Below, in pieces: positions 3,214-10,426 of a stretch of 45,934 nt of DNA. The notes beneath the pieces are model-generated. The model did not search any database. It was not told the origin of the DNA and saw only the letters and a program-made list of their open reading frames with translations. Position numbers and translations under genes: made by a program. Source of the DNA: Candidatus Daviesbacteria bacterium (lineage in GTDB: Bacteria > Patescibacteriota > Microgenomatia > Daviesbacterales > UBA10151); NCBI GenBank assembly GCA_027451625.1, contig DAIDIY010000002.1:1-45934 (forward strand), written 5' to 3'. Position 1 is the first letter of the stretch. Each line of letters opens with the position of its first letter.

Positions 3214-4959
3214 TTATCCAGAAAAAGGTAGTAGTTTCCAAAGAGTGAATGGATGAAGTATAGCTGAAAATAAATTAGGCTCCATAGGAGGAAAGTTTAA
3301 TTCATTTATACCTGAATGGGGAATATAGTCAATTTCTTCATCTTTATAATATGGTTTAGATAAAACGAATCGGAATGGATAGTCAGGTAAGAGATATCTT
3401 GCTTCTAGTGGATTTGAAAGTCCTGATGGAGCTAAATGAATATTTAAGATTGTTTTTACCACATCTGAAATAATTGTTAAGGTATATTCTCCTTCAGGAT
3501 CTTTTTTCCATTTAAGAGATGTATTTACTACTAGTGAAACTGGGTCTTTAATCTCAGTTTTAAAATTTATCGGTGAGGAATCAAATGGAATATTATTATG
3601 GAATAGCTGTAGTGAAATATTGTAACTTCCAGCTCCGGGAGCATCTATCATTATAGTAAAGGTAGCGCTATCTCCAGGGTCGACCTGAGTATTGGCAGGT
3701 AAAGAAACTGAAGCAATTCCTAGAGGGGATTTGTTTCCTGTTAATGATAACTTGATATCATTGGAGGAGATCCATGATGCGTTTCCCGTATTTTTAAACT
3801 GTAAATCTATTTTATAATGCTCCCCTGCAACAAGAGATGGATATATAGATCCTTTGATAATCTGAGCTTTAAATGACTGGATAGGTTTTCCAGAAATTTT
3901 GGATAAATTCTGGATTGCATAATAATCATCATAAAAGGGTGGATATGAAGCTCCTAAAATTTTTGGGTTTTGTTCTTCTCCATTTGGTTTTTCAAATGAA
4001 AAATGGTCGAATGGGGAAGCTTGATAATCTAATAGAAATGGTGTTATTGCCACAATGCGGCTATCATTCCAGACATTAGTAAAAGCTTCTTTAAAATAGT
4101 CACCGACTTGAGAAGCTAAAGGAAAACTTGAGTTATTCGTTAACCCTTCATCGTGTTCCCAGCCTGTTTCCGTAATAAATACAGGCAAGTTCTTATTTAA
4201 ATCTAATGATTTAAGATATGTAAGCTCCCATTGATACGTTCTTAAAGAGTTTCTACCACTGGCATCAGGACTGCCAATAAAATTTTTAGGGTAGGAGTGA
4301 GAAACCCAACCATCGAGCTTGTTAAAAATTCCTGGAACAGCTTTGTTCATCTCAGATAGAAACTGTGCTTCATCCATGTAATTTGGCATTTGAGTAGGAG
4401 CAGCTGCATCAAATCCAGCATTCATAACAAAAAAGTTGCTACTTCTTTTTTTTAAAGCATCAATTGTTTTATTTAAGACAGTGGCATAGGATGCTGGATC
4501 TACTTGTCCTCCCCATTCTTGGCCATTATTGGGTTCGTTATAAACGATGACATATCGATTTTTAATAGGCCAGTCTAGGTTATTTAGAAAATCAGCCCAG
4601 GCCTCTTCTTCTCCATCATACGGTCTTTTCCAATAGGAATTATCAGCAGAAGTAGCGAGACGAACAATTGGTATTAAATGTTTATCTCGAAGATAGTTAA
4701 AAAATGATTGCCATTTGTCATGATTTCTATCTCCGCTTTCTATGATGACAGTTACATAACCCCAGTCACCACCATTTGAATTTACTAAATCAGCAGCGGC
4801 TGAAGCTTCATTAGGGGTGGCAGATATAATATGAATTCCAAATTTATTGTTAGGCACTGATAGCGGATCAAAAATAGCATAAGCCTTAGGAGTCAATATA
4901 CTCAGATAGATTATAGCTAAGAAAAAAACAAATAATATTTTAATTATGGTAGTTCGCAT
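3214..4959 (-). CDS. Secreted glycoside hydrolase (GH5/GH39-like TIM barrel) with C-terminal Ig-like domain
   Basis: The 581-residue product begins with a signal peptide or anchor (residues 5-28, hydrophobic, with AYA before the mature part). The next ~330 residues look like a clan GH-A TIM-barrel glycosidase: VIVYNEPNN (near residue 142) supplies the acid/base glutamate and VFITETGWEH (near 262) the nucleophile. The segment around residues 385-470 (LQFKNTGNASWISSNDIKL) resembles the NBR1-type Ig-like domain, often found on CPR exported proteins. The tail has no clear sorting signal. It probably hydrolyses an external or cell-surface polysaccharide. Nothing visible links it in an operon; it diverges from the polymerase IV pair. 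The enzyme class is well supported, the family number and substrate are not. Confidence 0.75.
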   Translation of the reverse strand: MRTTIIKILFVFFLAIIYLSILTPKAYAIFDPLSVPNNKFGIHIISATPNEASAAADLVNSNGGDWGYVTVIIESGDRNHDKWQSFFNYLRDKHLIPIVRLATSADNSYWKRPYDGEEEAWADFLNNLDWPIKNRYVIVYNEPNNGQEWGGQVDPASYATVLNKTIDALKKRSSNFFVMNAGFDAAAPTQMPNYMDEAQFLSEMNKAVPGIFNKLDGWVSHSYPKNFIGSPDASGRNSLRTYQWELTYLKSLDLNKNLPVFITETGWEHDEGLTNNSSFPLASQVGDYFKEAFTNVWNDSRIVAITPFLLDYQASPFDHFSFEKPNGEEQNPKILGASYPPFYDDYYAIQNLSKISGKPIQSFKAQIIKGSIYPSLVAGEHYKIDLQFKNTGNASWISSNDIKLSLTGNKSPLGIASVSLPANTQVDPGDSATFTIMIDAPGAGSYNISLQLFHNNIPFDSSPINFKTEIKDPVSLVVNTSLKWKKDPEGEYTLTIISDVVKTILNIHLAPSGLSNPLEARYLLPDYPFRFVLSKPYYKDEEIDYIPHSGINELNFPPMEPNLFSAILHPFTLWKLLPFSG

Positions 4960-5019: not shown

Positions 5020-5262
5020 ATGCAAGAATTTAATGAATCTATCTCTGTTTGGGTATTTTTCAATAACAACCTAATTCAGCCACGTTCCTTTGTTTGGCAT
5101 AATCGTCATATTAAAATCTCTAAGGTAAACTTAGTTCACACAAGCAAGATAGGGACGGAAGTATTTTACCATTTTTCTGTATCAAGTGAAGATAACTTTT
5201 ATCGTTTAAAGTTTAATATTCATAATTTGCATTGGTATCTTGAGGCAGTAGAAGAAGGATGA
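5020..5262 (+). CDS. Small protein paired with DNA polymerase IV (DUF6504-like)
   Basis: This 80-residue protein has a beta-rich pattern with many aromatic residues (ISVWVFFNNN, FVWHNRHIKI, LHWYLEAVEEG). Small proteins of this kind are encoded beside dinB/imuB-type polymerases in many bacteria, and its 3' end overlaps the dinB start by four bases (GATGA), so the two are translationally coupled. It has no membrane segment. I infer a role in translesion synthesis, perhaps binding the polymerase or DNA, from position and resemblance only. The start is set by the promoter just upstream. Confidence 0.65.
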   Translation: MQEFNESISVWVFFNNNLIQPRSFVWHNRHIKISKVNLVHTSKIGTEVFYHFSVSSEDNFYRLKFNIHNLHWYLEAVEEG

Positions 5263-6581
5263 AAATAATACTTCATATAGACTTCAATTCTTATTTTGCT
5301 TCTGTTGAACAACAAGCAAACCCTAGGCTTCGGAACAAACCTATCGGTGTCACAGGAGGAGATAGGATGAGCAGAACTGTTCTTTCAACGGCTTCAGTGG
5401 AGGCTAAAAGATTAGGAGTTAAAACAGGAATGCAGATTTGGGAAGCTAAAAGAGTCTGTCCGCAAATAATTATTATACAAGGTGACAGTGAGAAATATTT
5501 ATATTGCAGTAAAAAATTTTGGAATCTTTTAAAAGATTTTAGTCCTATAATTGAGATATTCTCAATAGATGAAGTGTTTTTAGAGTTAGGTATTAAAGAG
5601 TTAAAATTAATAGAAAATGATCAAATTGAATTTTATCAAAACTCTGATTTTAAGAACTTAGATATAAATTTCTTTAAAGCAGAAATTATTGCAAAAAAGA
5701 TAAAAGAAAGGATTAGAGACGAAATAGGCGAGTGGATGAGATGTTCAATTGGTATCTCATATAACAAATTAATCGCAAAGTTGGCTAGCAGTCTTCAAAA
5801 ACCGGATGGACTGGTAATTATAAAAGATGCTGCTCAAGCAGTTAATATTTTAGATAAAGTTGAAATAGATGAGATCTGTGGTATTGGCCCTAGGATAAAA
5901 AGACGTCTTTATAATTTAGGAATTTCAAATTTTTCATCTCTTAGGAGCGTACCTAGATCCTATTTAGTATCTTCTTTTAAAAACTACGGTTTTAGACTGT
6001 ATGATATGGCTCGAGGATTAGATAACTCACCGATCCAACCATTTTATGAAAAACAAGAGGTTAAATCGATCGGGCATAGATATACTCTAACTTCTGATAC
6101 ATCAGATCCGAATAGAATAAGGCAGATACTTATAAAAATTAGTGAAATGGTAGCAGTAAGACTCCGAGAAAAAAAATTAACTGCGAAAACTATACATGTC
6201 TGGTATAGGTCATCTTTTGATATAAATACTTTTTTGCCGGAAAGCCATACATTTAATGGAGATAGCATGCAGACAACACTCTCCGATTTTACTAACGATG
6301 GACTAGAAATATTTTTTTCAGGATGGCGAATTTTTAATACTATCTGGCAAAGAGAAAACATAAGAATGATTGGTATTGCTCTCTCTGGATTAAAGAGAAC
6401 TCAGTTTTCTACCCTCTCCTTTTTGGAAAGCGAGAAGAAGCGACAAAAGATAATAAATGTACTTGATTTAGTTAATAATAAATTTGGAGAATTTACCTTA
6501 AAAAGAGGTATTCTTTTAGGTTCTGATCCAATACAAAGAAAACCTAATCCTTATCTTTCTGATCGAAGATTTAAATTATAA
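5259..6581 (+). CDS. dinB: DNA polymerase IV (Y-family translesion polymerase)
   Basis: The N-terminus MKIILHIDFNSYFASVEQQ is the classic Y-family start with the metal-binding aspartate (D8). FSIDEVFLEL near residue 104 gives the DE catalytic pair. MRCSIGISYNKLIAKLAS is the palm motif, IDEICGIGPRIKRRL the helix-hairpin-helix thumb, and the last ~180 residues form the little-finger domain. The enzyme copies past damaged bases with low fidelity. The length, 440 residues, exceeds the roughly 350 of E. coli DinB and is closer to UmuC or Gram-positive forms. I do not see a clear beta-clamp pentapeptide at the C-terminus. The start overlaps the upstream gene by four bases. Confidence 0.93.
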   Translation: MKIILHIDFNSYFASVEQQANPRLRNKPIGVTGGDRMSRTVLSTASVEAKRLGVKTGMQIWEAKRVCPQIIIIQGDSEKYLYCSKKFWNLLKDFSPIIEIFSIDEVFLELGIKELKLIENDQIEFYQNSDFKNLDINFFKAEIIAKKIKERIRDEIGEWMRCSIGISYNKLIAKLASSLQKPDGLVIIKDAAQAVNILDKVEIDEICGIGPRIKRRLYNLGISNFSSLRSVPRSYLVSSFKNYGFRLYDMARGLDNSPIQPFYEKQEVKSIGHRYTLTSDTSDPNRIRQILIKISEMVAVRLREKKLTAKTIHVWYRSSFDINTFLPESHTFNGDSMQTTLSDFTNDGLEIFFSGWRIFNTIWQRENIRMIGIALSGLKRTQFSTLSFLESEKKRQKIINVLDLVNNKFGEFTLKRGILLGSDPIQRKPNPYLSDRRFKL

Positions 6582-7365: not shown

Positions 7366-7497
7366 AAGTACTCCAAGTACCATCTCCTTGTTCATAAATT
7401 TATGCATAAAAAGACTGGAAAGAAAAAAGCTACATTGAACCATTATTATGAAGCTAAACTTAGAAGAAAAATCATCAAAAAACTCTACTTTTGCATT

Positions 7498-7572
7498 TGG
7501 AGCGAGCGACGGGACTCGAACCCGTGACGTCCACTTTGGAAAAGTGGCATTCTACCACTGAATTACGCTCGC
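7498..7572 (-). tRNA. tRNA-Gly (UCC), intact copy
   Basis: The minus strand gives acceptor GCGAGCG/CGCTCGC (perfect), D-arm, anticodon stem CCACT/AGTGG around loop TTTCCAA (anticodon TCC), T-arm loop TTCGAGT, discriminator T and encoded CCA at 7498-7500. A TATAAT on the minus strand at 7586-7591 lies 13 bases upstream of the 5' end and is a likely promoter box. A second, mutated copy lies at 10256-10330. Confidence 0.93.
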
Positions 7573-7644
7573 ATATATTTTTACTATTATACAAAAATAA
7601 AGATTTTACCACTAGAGGTAAAAATACGTATTGAAGTCTAAAAT
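7498..7644. repeat. Left copy of a 147-bp direct repeat containing tRNA-Gly
   Basis: Positions 7508-7637 are identical to 10266-10395 (constant offset 2758). The match extends to 7498 with three mismatches in the acceptor region and to 7644 with one more. The repeat covers the whole tRNA plus about 70 bases of its upstream flank, including an inverted repeat (TTTTACC, six bases, GGTAAAA). Confidence 0.9.
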
Positions 7645-7900
7645 TTAGAAGAACAAAAGATTAGTCACCAATTTATTTATCCACGAATGCCAAAGGTGAA
7701 TGCATATGTTGAGAGATTTAATCGAACCATCCAAGAAGAGTTTATCTTAAGAAATGATGAGATCTATTTATGACTTAGCAGCATTTCAAAAGAAGCTGAC
7801 AGATTATCTTTACTGGTATAATTACAAAAGACCACATTCATCTTTAAAATATATGTCACCTATGACCTTTATACAATCAATCATTCCGAAAAGTGCGTGA
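7645..7900 (+). pseudogene. IS481/IS3-type transposase C-terminal relic, frameshifted
   Basis: The first part reads SHQFIYPRMPKVNAYVERFN and RTIQEEFIL, the end of an rve integrase core in IS481/IS3-like transposases, with the last catalytic Glu in YVERFNR. The frame stops at a TGA; the next frame resumes with DLAAFQKKLTDYLYWYNYK and RPHSSLKYMSPM, the normal transposase C-terminus, ending at 7900. A one-base frame change therefore interrupts it, and the N-terminal two thirds is absent because the sequence joins directly to the tRNA repeat. No terminal inverted repeats were found. Confidence 0.8.
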
Positions 7901-7958: not shown

Positions 7959-9944
7959 GTGGGCATAGAACATATGGAGTCTTCCGAAAATACAACTCAA
8001 CTCCTTAAAAACAAATGGAAGCTTGATGAGAGCAAGGAAGTAAAAAAAGCCGCTGAGGTAACAAGGAGGCATACCGGAGAATGGCCAAAACGGGATCCAT
8101 TATCCAGGATCCAAAACTACCTTGATCGGTTAGATAACCTCATCAATCCCACTCCTCTAGAAGGACATCCCAACTTTGACAGAAAAGAACGGAATTTGGA
8201 GATGTTAAAGGTACGATTGCACGATAGATATGTAGTCAAACCAGATGAAATTCCTGAAGGCTTTTGGGAAAACCAGAGAAGAATCATCAGAGAACGAGGT
8301 CAAGGTGGAGATTTAGCTCAGGTGGATTTTGACGAGTTAAAACGACAGAACACCGAAGCCATCATTGCAGATCAAACATCGAGTCTTGATAAATGGGCTG
8401 ATTACTTTTTTTCTTCTGATTCCTCATGGGTACCTGATTCTTTGAAATACTATACCTTCAGAAGCGTCTTGGATATGGCGGAATATGATAAAGAGAAGAA
8501 AGAATATCCGAAACGGTCAAAAGGTACGACTAAACCATTCCCTGATTTAAATCGTGAAGCGTTAGAATATGTGCTTGATGCAGTAAACAAAAAATATCAA
8601 CAAACCCAACAAGAAAGAAAAGCCGAAGAACAGCAGCGTAAAGCAGCAGGACGAGAACTTACTGATATTGAAAAACTTCTGGAAGGAGAAAACTTTGCCA
8701 AACTCTATGCCTATGCAATTGAAAAAGTTACTCCTGCTTCACCGGAGCAGCTTGCCGCAACTTCCGGCCAATGGGTAAAGTACGACCATAGATCAGATCA
8801 TATGCCACTAGTTCAGTCCCTCCAAGGTCATGGTACTGGTTGGTGTACAGCTGGAGAATCAACTGCTCAGAAGCAACTTCAAGGCGGAGATTTCTATGTC
8901 TATTATTCTTTAGACCAAGATGGTAAACCAACTATCCCAAGGGTGGCAATAAGGATGGAAGAAAATAAAATTGCCGAGATTAGGGGTATAGCTGCAGACC
9001 AAAATCTGGATTCCGGAGCAGCTCAAATTGTTGATGAAAAACTAAAAGAATTTGGAACTGAAGGTCAATCATATAAAAAGAGAGCTCATGATATGGAGTT
9101 TTTGACAATAATTGATCATAAAACCCAAGAAAATCAACCTCTTACCGGTCAAGAACTTGCGTTTCTCTATGAAATAGATTCACCAATTGAAGGCTTTGGT
9201 TACAGCAAAGATCCGCGTATTACAGAAGTCCGATCAAAAAGAAATGTTGATGAAGACATGTTGGTTGTCTTTAACTGCGACAGAAACCAGATTGCCCATA
9301 ATATGCGAGAGCTTAGGCCAAATAAGAAAGCATATGTTGGGAAACTGGAATCTGGTATATTTGACCAAATTGTACGGTACAACATAGAACAAGTCTACAC
9401 TTCCTTCCCTGAAGGGAAGATAAGGCTTCAGACTGATGAGATTGGAGGGAAAAATAGAGAACAACTGAAGCAGGAACTGGCACAGCTCGAACAAACAAAT
9501 TTACTTTGGGTAAGTACCTGGGCAAAATCTATGATAGATAATCCCAAATTCACCACTCGTACTACTCCAGATGACATCCAAACAGTGAGACTGACCGTGC
9601 AAGATTTAGGATTCGACAGAGGAACTCCAACAACAGATCAAATCTATAAAAAAGCAGCAGAACTTGGGTTAGAGCTTTGTCCTGCAGAGCTTGGAGTTCA
9701 TAGAAGGTTAAAAAATTTAAACCAACCTGAAGAAGACTGGTATTACATTGGGATGAAACCAATTACTGCTTCCGACGGCAGTCCGGACGTCTTCGCTCTG
9801 GTTCGGTATGGAGGTAGGCTCGGGCTGGATGAGCGTTGGGCTGGACCTGGCCGCGAGTGGGGTCTCGGCAGTAGGTTTGTCTTTGGCCTCCGCAAGCCAA
9901 GCCCTCAAAACCTTAGTCTCTTAGGAAGAATTTTTAAGGGTTAA
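7959..9944 (+). CDS. Large protein with a WCTAGE domain and a DGR-type variable C-terminus (candidate DGR target)
   Basis: The 661-residue product has a charged N-terminal helical region and a coiled-coil-like stretch near residues 205-235 (rich in Q, E, K, R). A domain around residues 285-360 is marked by GHGTGWCTAGESTAQKQL and GGDFYVYYSLD; similar Gly-Trp-Cys-Thr motifs occur in phage, plasmid and CPR proteins of unknown function. The last ~60 residues (YYIGMKP, then ERWAGPGREWGLGSRFVF, then GLRKPS) have the form of a C-type-lectin-fold variable region of diversity-generating retroelements: fixed W, P, W and RFVF with scattered substitutions between. In known DGRs these positions are specified by AAC-type codons in the template repeat. 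The 3' end is clearly richer in GC than the rest. No signal peptide is seen. The start could also be ATG 7974. Confidence 0.6.
   Translation: MGIEHMESSENTTQLLKNKWKLDESKEVKKAAEVTRRHTGEWPKRDPLSRIQNYLDRLDNLINPTPLEGHPNFDRKERNLEMLKVRLHDRYVVKPDEIPEGFWENQRRIIRERGQGGDLAQVDFDELKRQNTEAIIADQTSSLDKWADYFFSSDSSWVPDSLKYYTFRSVLDMAEYDKEKKEYPKRSKGTTKPFPDLNREALEYVLDAVNKKYQQTQQERKAEEQQRKAAGRELTDIEKLLEGENFAKLYAYAIEKVTPASPEQLAATSGQWVKYDHRSDHMPLVQSLQGHGTGWCTAGESTAQKQLQGGDFYVYYSLDQDGKPTIPRVAIRMEENKIAEIRGIAADQNLDSGAAQIVDEKLKEFGTEGQSYKKRAHDMEFLTIIDHKTQENQPLTGQELAFLYEIDSPIEGFGYSKDPRITEVRSKRNVDEDMLVVFNCDRNQIAHNMRELRPNKKAYVGKLESGIFDQIVRYNIEQVYTSFPEGKIRLQTDEIGGKNREQLKQELAQLEQTNLLWVSTWAKSMIDNPKFTTRTTPDDIQTVRLTVQDLGFDRGTPTTDQIYKKAAELGLELCPAELGVHRRLKNLNQPEEDWYYIGMKPITASDGSPDVFALVRYGGRLGLDERWAGPGREWGLGSRFVFGLRKPSPQNLSLLGRIFKG
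9771..9899 (+). other. Candidate DGR variable region (VR)
   Basis: This stretch is much richer in G and C than the surrounding DNA. It encodes a tryptophan-framed pattern ending in RFVF and a conserved-looking tail GLRKPS. The codons between the fixed residues are unusually mixed (GGA, CCT, GGC, CGC, GAG; GGT, CTC, GGC, AGT). This fits adenine-directed mutagenesis of a template rich in AAC/GAC codons, where A is replaced by any base. The template itself is not in this window. Confidence 0.55.
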
Positions 9945-9967
9945 TGCTTTGATTTTTTGTCCCTTAG

Positions 9968-10285
9968 TGTTTTTCCCGCGTAGCGGGTCGAGATATTGAA
10001 AAAGACAGCTTTGATTTCGGATTATTGGCTGCTCAAAGGTTCGAACATGGAGATCCTGAAGACAAAAAAACCATTTTCAAGACAGTCGGCTCGAACCCGA
10101 TTTTACTAGATCAAAATTTGCAATTTCAGCTTCAATATTTGTTTTTTATGTATAAACAGGGTGTAAAAAAAACGAAAGATGAAATTGATCATCTCAAACC
10201 TATAAAAAGGTTGTCAGAACAACCCGAATTAAAAATTTATCTAAAAAATTCTATATGGAGCAAAAGACGGGACTCGAACCCGTGA
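9968..10285 (+). pseudogene. Serine recombinase C-terminal relic ending in the tRNA-Gly copy
   Basis: The frame is open from about 9968 and reads RDIEKDSFDFGLLAAQRFEH, then GDPEDKKTIFKTVGSNPILL and DQNLQFQL. This is the typical C-terminal tail of CPR serine recombinases (RFE.GD...KK.I...GSNL.L.D..L). The catalytic and zinc-ribbon domains are gone; the gene before it occupies their place. The frame crosses the CCA end of the tRNA-Gly copy (the W codon in SIWSKRR is the complement of CCA) and stops with a TGA in the T-arm. It should mark the right end of an integrated element. A start at TTG 10025 would be artificial. Confidence 0.7.
9975..9987. other. GC-rich hairpin downstream of the variable region
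   Basis: CCCGC, loop GTA, GCGGG form a perfect 5-bp stem in AT-rich DNA, about 75 bases after the variable region and 30 bases after the stop codon. Several characterised DGRs carry a GC-rich hairpin or cruciform just after their variable region that helps retrohoming. It could instead be a weak terminator. Confidence 0.4.
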
Positions 10286-10330
10286 CGTCCACTTTGGAAA
10301 AGTGGCATTCTACCACTGAATTACGCTCGC
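10256..10330 (-). tRNA. Second tRNA-Gly (UCC) copy with damaged acceptor stem
   Basis: It is identical to the copy at 7498-7572 from the 5' end through the T-arm, including anticodon TCC and CCA. The 3' acceptor strand differs: CTTTTGC instead of CGCTCGC. Against GCGAGCG this leaves one mismatch (6:67) and two G-U pairs (3:70 and 5:68). It may be a tRNA pseudogene or a weak tRNA. The altered bases are also codons of the recombinase relic that runs through it. Confidence 0.75.
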
Positions 10331-10402
10331 ATATATTTTTACTATTATACAAAAATAAAGATTTTACCACTAGAGGTAAAAATACGTATTGAAGTTTAAA
10401 AT
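10256..10402. repeat. Right copy of the 147-bp direct repeat
   Basis: Partner of 7498-7644. With it, this copy brackets about 2.6 kb holding the transposase relic, the candidate DGR target and the recombinase relic. Its end (TTGAAG at 10389-10394) may also supply the -35 box for the following glycosyltransferase gene. Confidence 0.9.
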
Positions 10403-10426
10403 ATTTAAGATTTATGATGAAATTAG

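Follow-up and report, generated by a model that had tools for sequence, protein, structure and literature searches.

The stretch of DNA analysed here (the window, 45,934 nucleotides) is the entire contig C2 of an assembly of 1.15 Mb in 51 contigs, 98.45% complete. It carries a gene of 661 open codons whose C-terminal tail had been proposed, in an earlier note made from the letters alone, to be a DGR variable region (VR). Both the reading frame and its C-terminal end are as that note gave them. The tail is likewise real, although its placement at 9771-9899 was one codon off, and by homology the variable region, VR1, covers 9768-9896 (Table 1). The GC-rich patch noticed there was also recovered, with a GC content of 0.643 over 9768-9896 against 0.404 in the preceding part of the gene and 0.345 in the window. 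Adenine makes up 0.109 of the same segment vs 0.363 in the gene, a low value that is expected where the adenines of a template (TR) have been replaced.

Table 1. Positions of the features of the window and, in the last three rows, of related loci (numbered on their own sequences).
Feature	Position	Strand	Remarks
158-bp direct repeat carrying tRNA-Gly(TCC), left copy	7495..7652	-	
Transposase remnant (integrase core, rve_3), broken; upstream of the target	~7665..7900	+	PF13683, E=9e-17, pieced translation
DGR target gene	7959..9944	+	661 aa ORF, frame intact; protein end ...SDGSPDVFALVRYGGRLGLDERWAGPGREWGLGSRFVFGLRKPSPQNLSLLGRIFKG
WCTAGE chassis, ~residues 14-450	7998..9308	+	Helical part, then WCTAGE/GGDFYVYY alpha/beta core at ~residues 270-390
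C-terminal DGR target module, ~residues 518-646	9510..9896	+	Profile A2; end modelled as C-type-lectin-like
Variable region VR1, codons 604-646	9768..9896	+	Codon-by-codon alignment with TR/VR pairs of five same-family genomes
VR-type 3' end CTCCGCAAG, IMH-like mark	9888..9896	+	CGC where same-family TRs read CGA
3' flank; homologous to the spacer between VR and TR leader in intact loci	9918..9994	+	Local alignment; homology stops here
Perfect hairpin CCCGC-GTA-GCGGG	9975..9987	+	31 nt beyond the stop codon; several intact loci have CCGCGnnGCGG
158-bp tRNA-Gly(TCC) repeat, right copy	10253..10410	-	
Leader RNA	L065:~4104-4331; L070:~8080-8306; L077:~5129-5379; further loci		Starts approximate; ends at TR start
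Chassis fused to LRR-like or DUF4116-like repeats	L086, L088, L092, L093, L099, L101, L102, L106, L107, L111, L115, L117		
Saccharibacterial chassis protein with another DGR VR type	L094:5896-7863, TR 8165-8278		23/23 mismatches at TR adenines

The two tRNA-Gly repeat copies, identical at 150 of 158 positions (95%), bracket the target gene together with transposase debris, and the segment between them is a small island or a duplication. A broken reading frame lies at 10010-10258; its reading as a recombinase tail found no support, since it matched no family and no other copy of it was found. The empty tRNA-Gly site was sought by synteny around the neighbouring glycosyltransferase, and the four relatives with a good match had no tRNA there.

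Homologues of the gene were searched in 138 genomes, including its own (G000), and were found in 12 of them; the nearest named relatives are Daviesbacteria, Roizmanbacteria and Levybacteria. In relatives, target-gene homologues up to 60% identical stand directly upstream of TR, avd and a reverse transcriptase (RT). In G020 and G004 the tail occurs a second time downstream of the target, and this copy and the RT both lie within about 2.5 kb; the same arrangement is found in G034, where only the C-terminal module is homologous. The gene order of these intact relatives is target, leader RNA, TR, avd (antisense) and RT. Between TR and RT, the opposite strand carries a small gene that encodes Avd (PF22296, E=1e-15; it also matches NF033474 with E=6.5e-17, below the curated cut-off of that model), while the RT is presumably DGR-like, according to our own reading of its SQ motif, GLPLGNVTSQ. 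The mismatches between template and variable region fall at TR adenines in 27 of 27 cases in G008, 19 of 19 in G034, 17 of 17 on contig 6 of G007, 20 of 21 in G004 and 23 of 26 in G020, whose pair also differs by one codon insertion. A broader scan added 53 loci, and when the adenine rule was tested on their TR/VR pairs it accounted for 313 of 319 mismatches over 15 distinct pairs. As a side observation, G004 is a DGR-rich CPR genome, its contigs C5, C16, C25 and C26 carrying six RT loci, each with a nearby Avd match over the cut-off.

In the intact loci, about 225 nt before TR are conserved as a leader, which starts just after a -10-like TATACT box and ends at most 2 nt from the start of TR; a terminator hairpin follows within about 10 nt after TR. 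RNAalifold gave 55 pairs for this leader, 39 of them with changes on both sides. In its 3' domain 92.9% of cells pair, compared with at most 50% when slid, and 0 of 500 shuffles reach any of these measures. Furthermore, the covariance model of the leader matches loci outside its building set (G030, G085, L071, L104, L133-L135, L137-L139 and L143), several of them beside RTs. No Rfam family matches the leader RNA and no description of it was found in the open-access papers searched, the subscription literature lying outside the scope of that search. The leader RNA, a possible new DGR RNA architecture, and the N-terminal chassis considered below are the novel elements of these systems.

The alignment of VR1 with the TR/VR pairs of the relatives supports, by homology to the variable regions of CPR DGR targets, the proposal that the tail is a DGR variable region. 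The templates of the relatives do carry AAC, AAT or GAC at the codons for which such triplets had been predicted, and the residues of VR1 opposite the Asn codons of TR are hypervariable columns. Over 33 homologues, the entropy at the columns of TR AA codons is 2.68 bits vs 1.31 at other columns (p=7e-5). At the 3' end, CGCAAG is present in all five same-family VRs, with CGA at that codon in all five TRs. A full paralogue of the target gene on contig C25 provides a second variable region, VR2, and both VR1 and VR2 read CGCAAG, the VR-type end that is distinct from TR (IMH vs IMH*). The two regions differ at 20 of 34 TR-adenine columns (adenine in at least four of the TRs of five relatives) vs 13 of 79 never-adenine columns (adenine in none), with p=1.2e-5. 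Their changes at codon positions 1 and 2 and at position 3 stand at 27:9 in the VR and at 16:24 in codons 540-603 (p=0.003), and third-position divergence is 9/43 inside the VR vs 93/204 upstream (p=0.003). Between VR1 and the TRs of the relatives, 45-61% of the mismatches fall at adenines, as expected across genera. From this evidence, VR1 is almost certainly the variable region of a DGR target protein.

The fold of the tail was predicted with AlphaFold2 from 33 homologues (pLDDT 88; a model from 4 sequences was poor). The nine best PDB matches of the model are all C-type lectin-type domains (Mincle, MCL, NKp65/KACL), the best of them having a Foldseek probability of 0.94 and E=0.048. A C-type-lectin-like fold is therefore predicted for the tail, weakly by E-value and convincingly by the consistency of the matches, and the tail presumably binds a ligand.

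Downstream of the gene, the 3' flank aligns with the loci of G020, G008, G034, G007 and L077 with a score that 0 of 500 shuffles reach. The homology includes the hairpin, which is present as had been noticed from the sequence, and ends just before the site that the TATACT box and the leader occupy in intact loci. Since the flank matches up to the hairpin and then stops, the simplest reading is that a complete DGR stood here and lost everything past the hairpin. No such trace of the intact-locus spacer was found in the flank of the C25 paralogue. The hairpin itself is not a universal mark, since some intact loci of this type have it and others lack it.

The machinery itself was not found in the assembled genome. 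Neither an RT nor a second copy of the tail lies inside the window, as the earlier note had stated. An RVT_1 search of the whole genome gave no match, whereas controls and relatives did, and a DGR RT used as query gave none either. Avd (PF22296) has no match in this genome and matches in 67 of the 138. The search for a copy of the tail elsewhere, which that note had recommended, returned at both DNA and profile level only VR1 and, on C25, VR2, neither of them accompanied by a TR. The leader RNA model also found nothing in this genome, with filters that can lose weak matches and with relatives positive. The expectation of a remote or orphan target thus holds for this assembly, from which RT, Avd, TR and leader RNA are all absent. 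The lack of a template and of an RT in the complete genome had been named as grounds for giving up the variable region; that lack is what the 51-contig assembly presents, and for the identity of the tail more weight goes to its homology with intact DGR loci.

The same condition is met with in other members of the family. The genome collection contains 28 tail-bearing targets, of which 16 share their contig with a TR copy and 13 have a near-complete RT frame; eight are followed by at least about 3 kb of sequence without TR. Ten genomes of the collection have targets without a TR close by, and in eight of these an RT is present elsewhere; four genomes of the same class with TR-less targets (G015, G088, G109 and G128) have no RT at all. 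When the orphan VRs of relatives were compared with the readable TRs beside remote RTs of the same genomes, no matching pair was found. A 64-residue RT fragment directly follows a TR-less target at L082:3992-4183. From the TR-less targets, the remote RTs with unmatched TRs and this fragment, we conclude that loss of the machine or divorce from it is recurrent in the target family. Another RT fragment was observed beside a TR-less target at L076:7936-8370. The fragments of L082 and L076 show the decay or rearrangement of DGRs in further lineages of CPR.

These observations are very probably explained by an ancestral DGR that diversified the tail and whose machinery has since been lost, leaving the tail frozen. 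In the ancestor, a DGR RT with Avd would have copied the RNA of a nearby TR into cDNA, misincorporating at template adenines. This cDNA would have replaced the C-terminal codons, placing random residues on the ligand face of the C-type-lectin-like domain, while the W, P and FVF framework residues would have stayed fixed during diversification. Later, the TR, avd and RT once downstream of the gene would have been lost, with the breakpoint just after the hairpin 9975-9987, and what remains would be an intact gene whose tail, diversified earlier, is now frozen. Against this explanation, the frame of the target gene is fully open, a state compatible both with recent loss and with a target still in use.

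Most probably, then, the locus holds an amputated DGR whose tail is frozen. A less probable, on the whole unlikely, explanation is that VR1 and VR2 are still being diversified in trans by a TR/RT cassette that lies in an assembly gap or in an unbinned replicon. A small remote cassette could indeed be missing, since the assembly is in 51 contigs and 98.45% complete. Two VRs in one genome speak for such a cassette, as does their low third-position divergence within the VR, which looks as though similar templates had been used to rewrite both since the paralogues diverged. For Thiohalocapsa PB-PSB1, moreover, activity in trans on distant targets is reported (PMC10907252), and the eight of ten collection genomes with an RT elsewhere point the same way. 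Against it stand the absence of RT, Avd, TR and leader RNA from an assembly of this completeness, with no TR that matches a VR at non-adenine sites, the failure of the relatives' remote-RT TRs to match orphan VRs and the four genomes with TR-less targets and no RT. In addition, VR1 and VR2 do not share one current template, since they differ at never-adenine columns. We infer, with moderate confidence, that the DGR machinery was lost from this genome and not left unassembled.

An error of assembly is a much less probable explanation. The TR-avd-RT segment would have been dropped at this point, with the tRNA-Gly repeats marking a misjoin; the repeat-flanked position fits this, and metagenome assemblies can break at TR/VR repeats. 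Only short exact words, however, would be common to VR1 and a TR, the two tRNA repeats are not identical (8 differences in 158 positions), some 265 bp of unrelated sequence lie between the hairpin and the right repeat, and the RT is missing from all contigs, not only from C2. Another alternative, in which the tail would be a conserved C-type-lectin-like domain of the ordinary kind that never served as a DGR substrate in its own lineage, and under which relatives acquired DGRs, agrees with the modules without nearby TR in several relatives but is highly improbable given the low adenine and high GC exactly over the VR, the VR-type CGCAAG end, the VR1/VR2 differences at TR-adenine columns and the similarity of the 3' flank to the spacer that separates VR from TR in intact loci.

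The N-terminal part of the protein, the WCTAGE chassis, gave no Pfam or NCBIfam domain, in agreement with the remark that it is not a usual display scaffold, and no match in PHROG. The chassis recurs with other tails, namely LRR-like repeats in CPR, Firmicutes and Deltaproteobacteria and DUF4116-like repeats in Firmicutes (both names come from the appearance of the sequence, not from a profile). The same chassis was also seen with a different DGR VR type in saccharibacterial proteins, those of L094, L095, L103 and L145, the last of which is filed as a viral contig. The WCTAGE core alone is homologous to parts of giant phage proteins (ORFs of ~3000 aa, L146-L165), which we take to resemble the polyvalent proteins of phage conflict systems. 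The best viral fold matches of the chassis include PcfJ-like models, though these are weak, with E between 0.09 and 0.4. The tail module was found in no viral contig, and the C-terminal part of the protein in no phage record. As a lead, this distribution suggests that the chassis belongs to an effector, acting inside the cell or injected, whose recognition tail can be exchanged.

Taken together, these elements allow a tentative proposal, which we hold to be somewhat doubtful as a whole. CPR DGRs of this type may depart from the RNA architecture of the BPP-1 prototype, with a structured, strongly covarying leader of about 225 nt transcribed 5' of TR and a terminator immediately behind TR where the prototype has its structured 3' spacer; the chassis may be an intracellular module of conflict type (polyvalent/PcfJ-like), on which LRRs and DGR lectins replace each other as recognition tail; and after loss of the machine the tail may be kept as a fixed receptor. 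The locus clearly exemplifies a DGR target in which past retrohoming can still be read from the gene and its 3' flank though the machine is missing, and TR-less copies recur in this target family. Surveys based on RT miss remote targets (Roux et al., 2021; PMC8144416), and machine-less targets of this kind would be missed by any survey that begins from the RT. Moreover, 'unrecognisable' CPR DGR targets gain a defined chassis, common to LRR-tailed and phage proteins, and the leader RNA element could make the priming of CPR DGRs testable.

Among known systems, the locus resembles the cellular DGRs of CPR (Patescibacteria), 'DGR clade 2', in its C-terminal VR, in the C-type-lectin-like fold, in adenine-specific TR/VR differences (here in the relatives) and in lacking a recognisable N-terminal domain (Roux et al., 2021; PMC8144416). 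It differs from them in that RT, TR and avd are not in this assembly. As in the remote or incomplete target loci of Thiohalocapsa PB-PSB1, a target without RT and TR lies beside transposon debris; some orphan VRs of that organism match a distant TR at all non-adenine sites, whereas no TR was found here (PMC10907252). With the DGR of Bordetella phage BPP-1 (mtd/avd/TR/brt) the window has in common an IMH-like 3' end of the VR and a GC-rich hairpin downstream. The phage-type hairpins have stems of 7-10 bp and 4-nt GRNA loops at 4-34 bp from the VR, while that of the window has 5 bp, a 3-nt loop and a distance of 78 nt (PMC3240598, PMC12875486). In BPP-1 a structured spacer 3' of TR recruits bRT-Avd and primes cDNA (PMC12875486), whereas the CPR loci have their structured RNA 5' of TR and a terminator within about 10 nt after TR. 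The CPR leader arrangement thus looks like the mirror image of the BPP-1 spacer, and by analogy the leader may do the same job.
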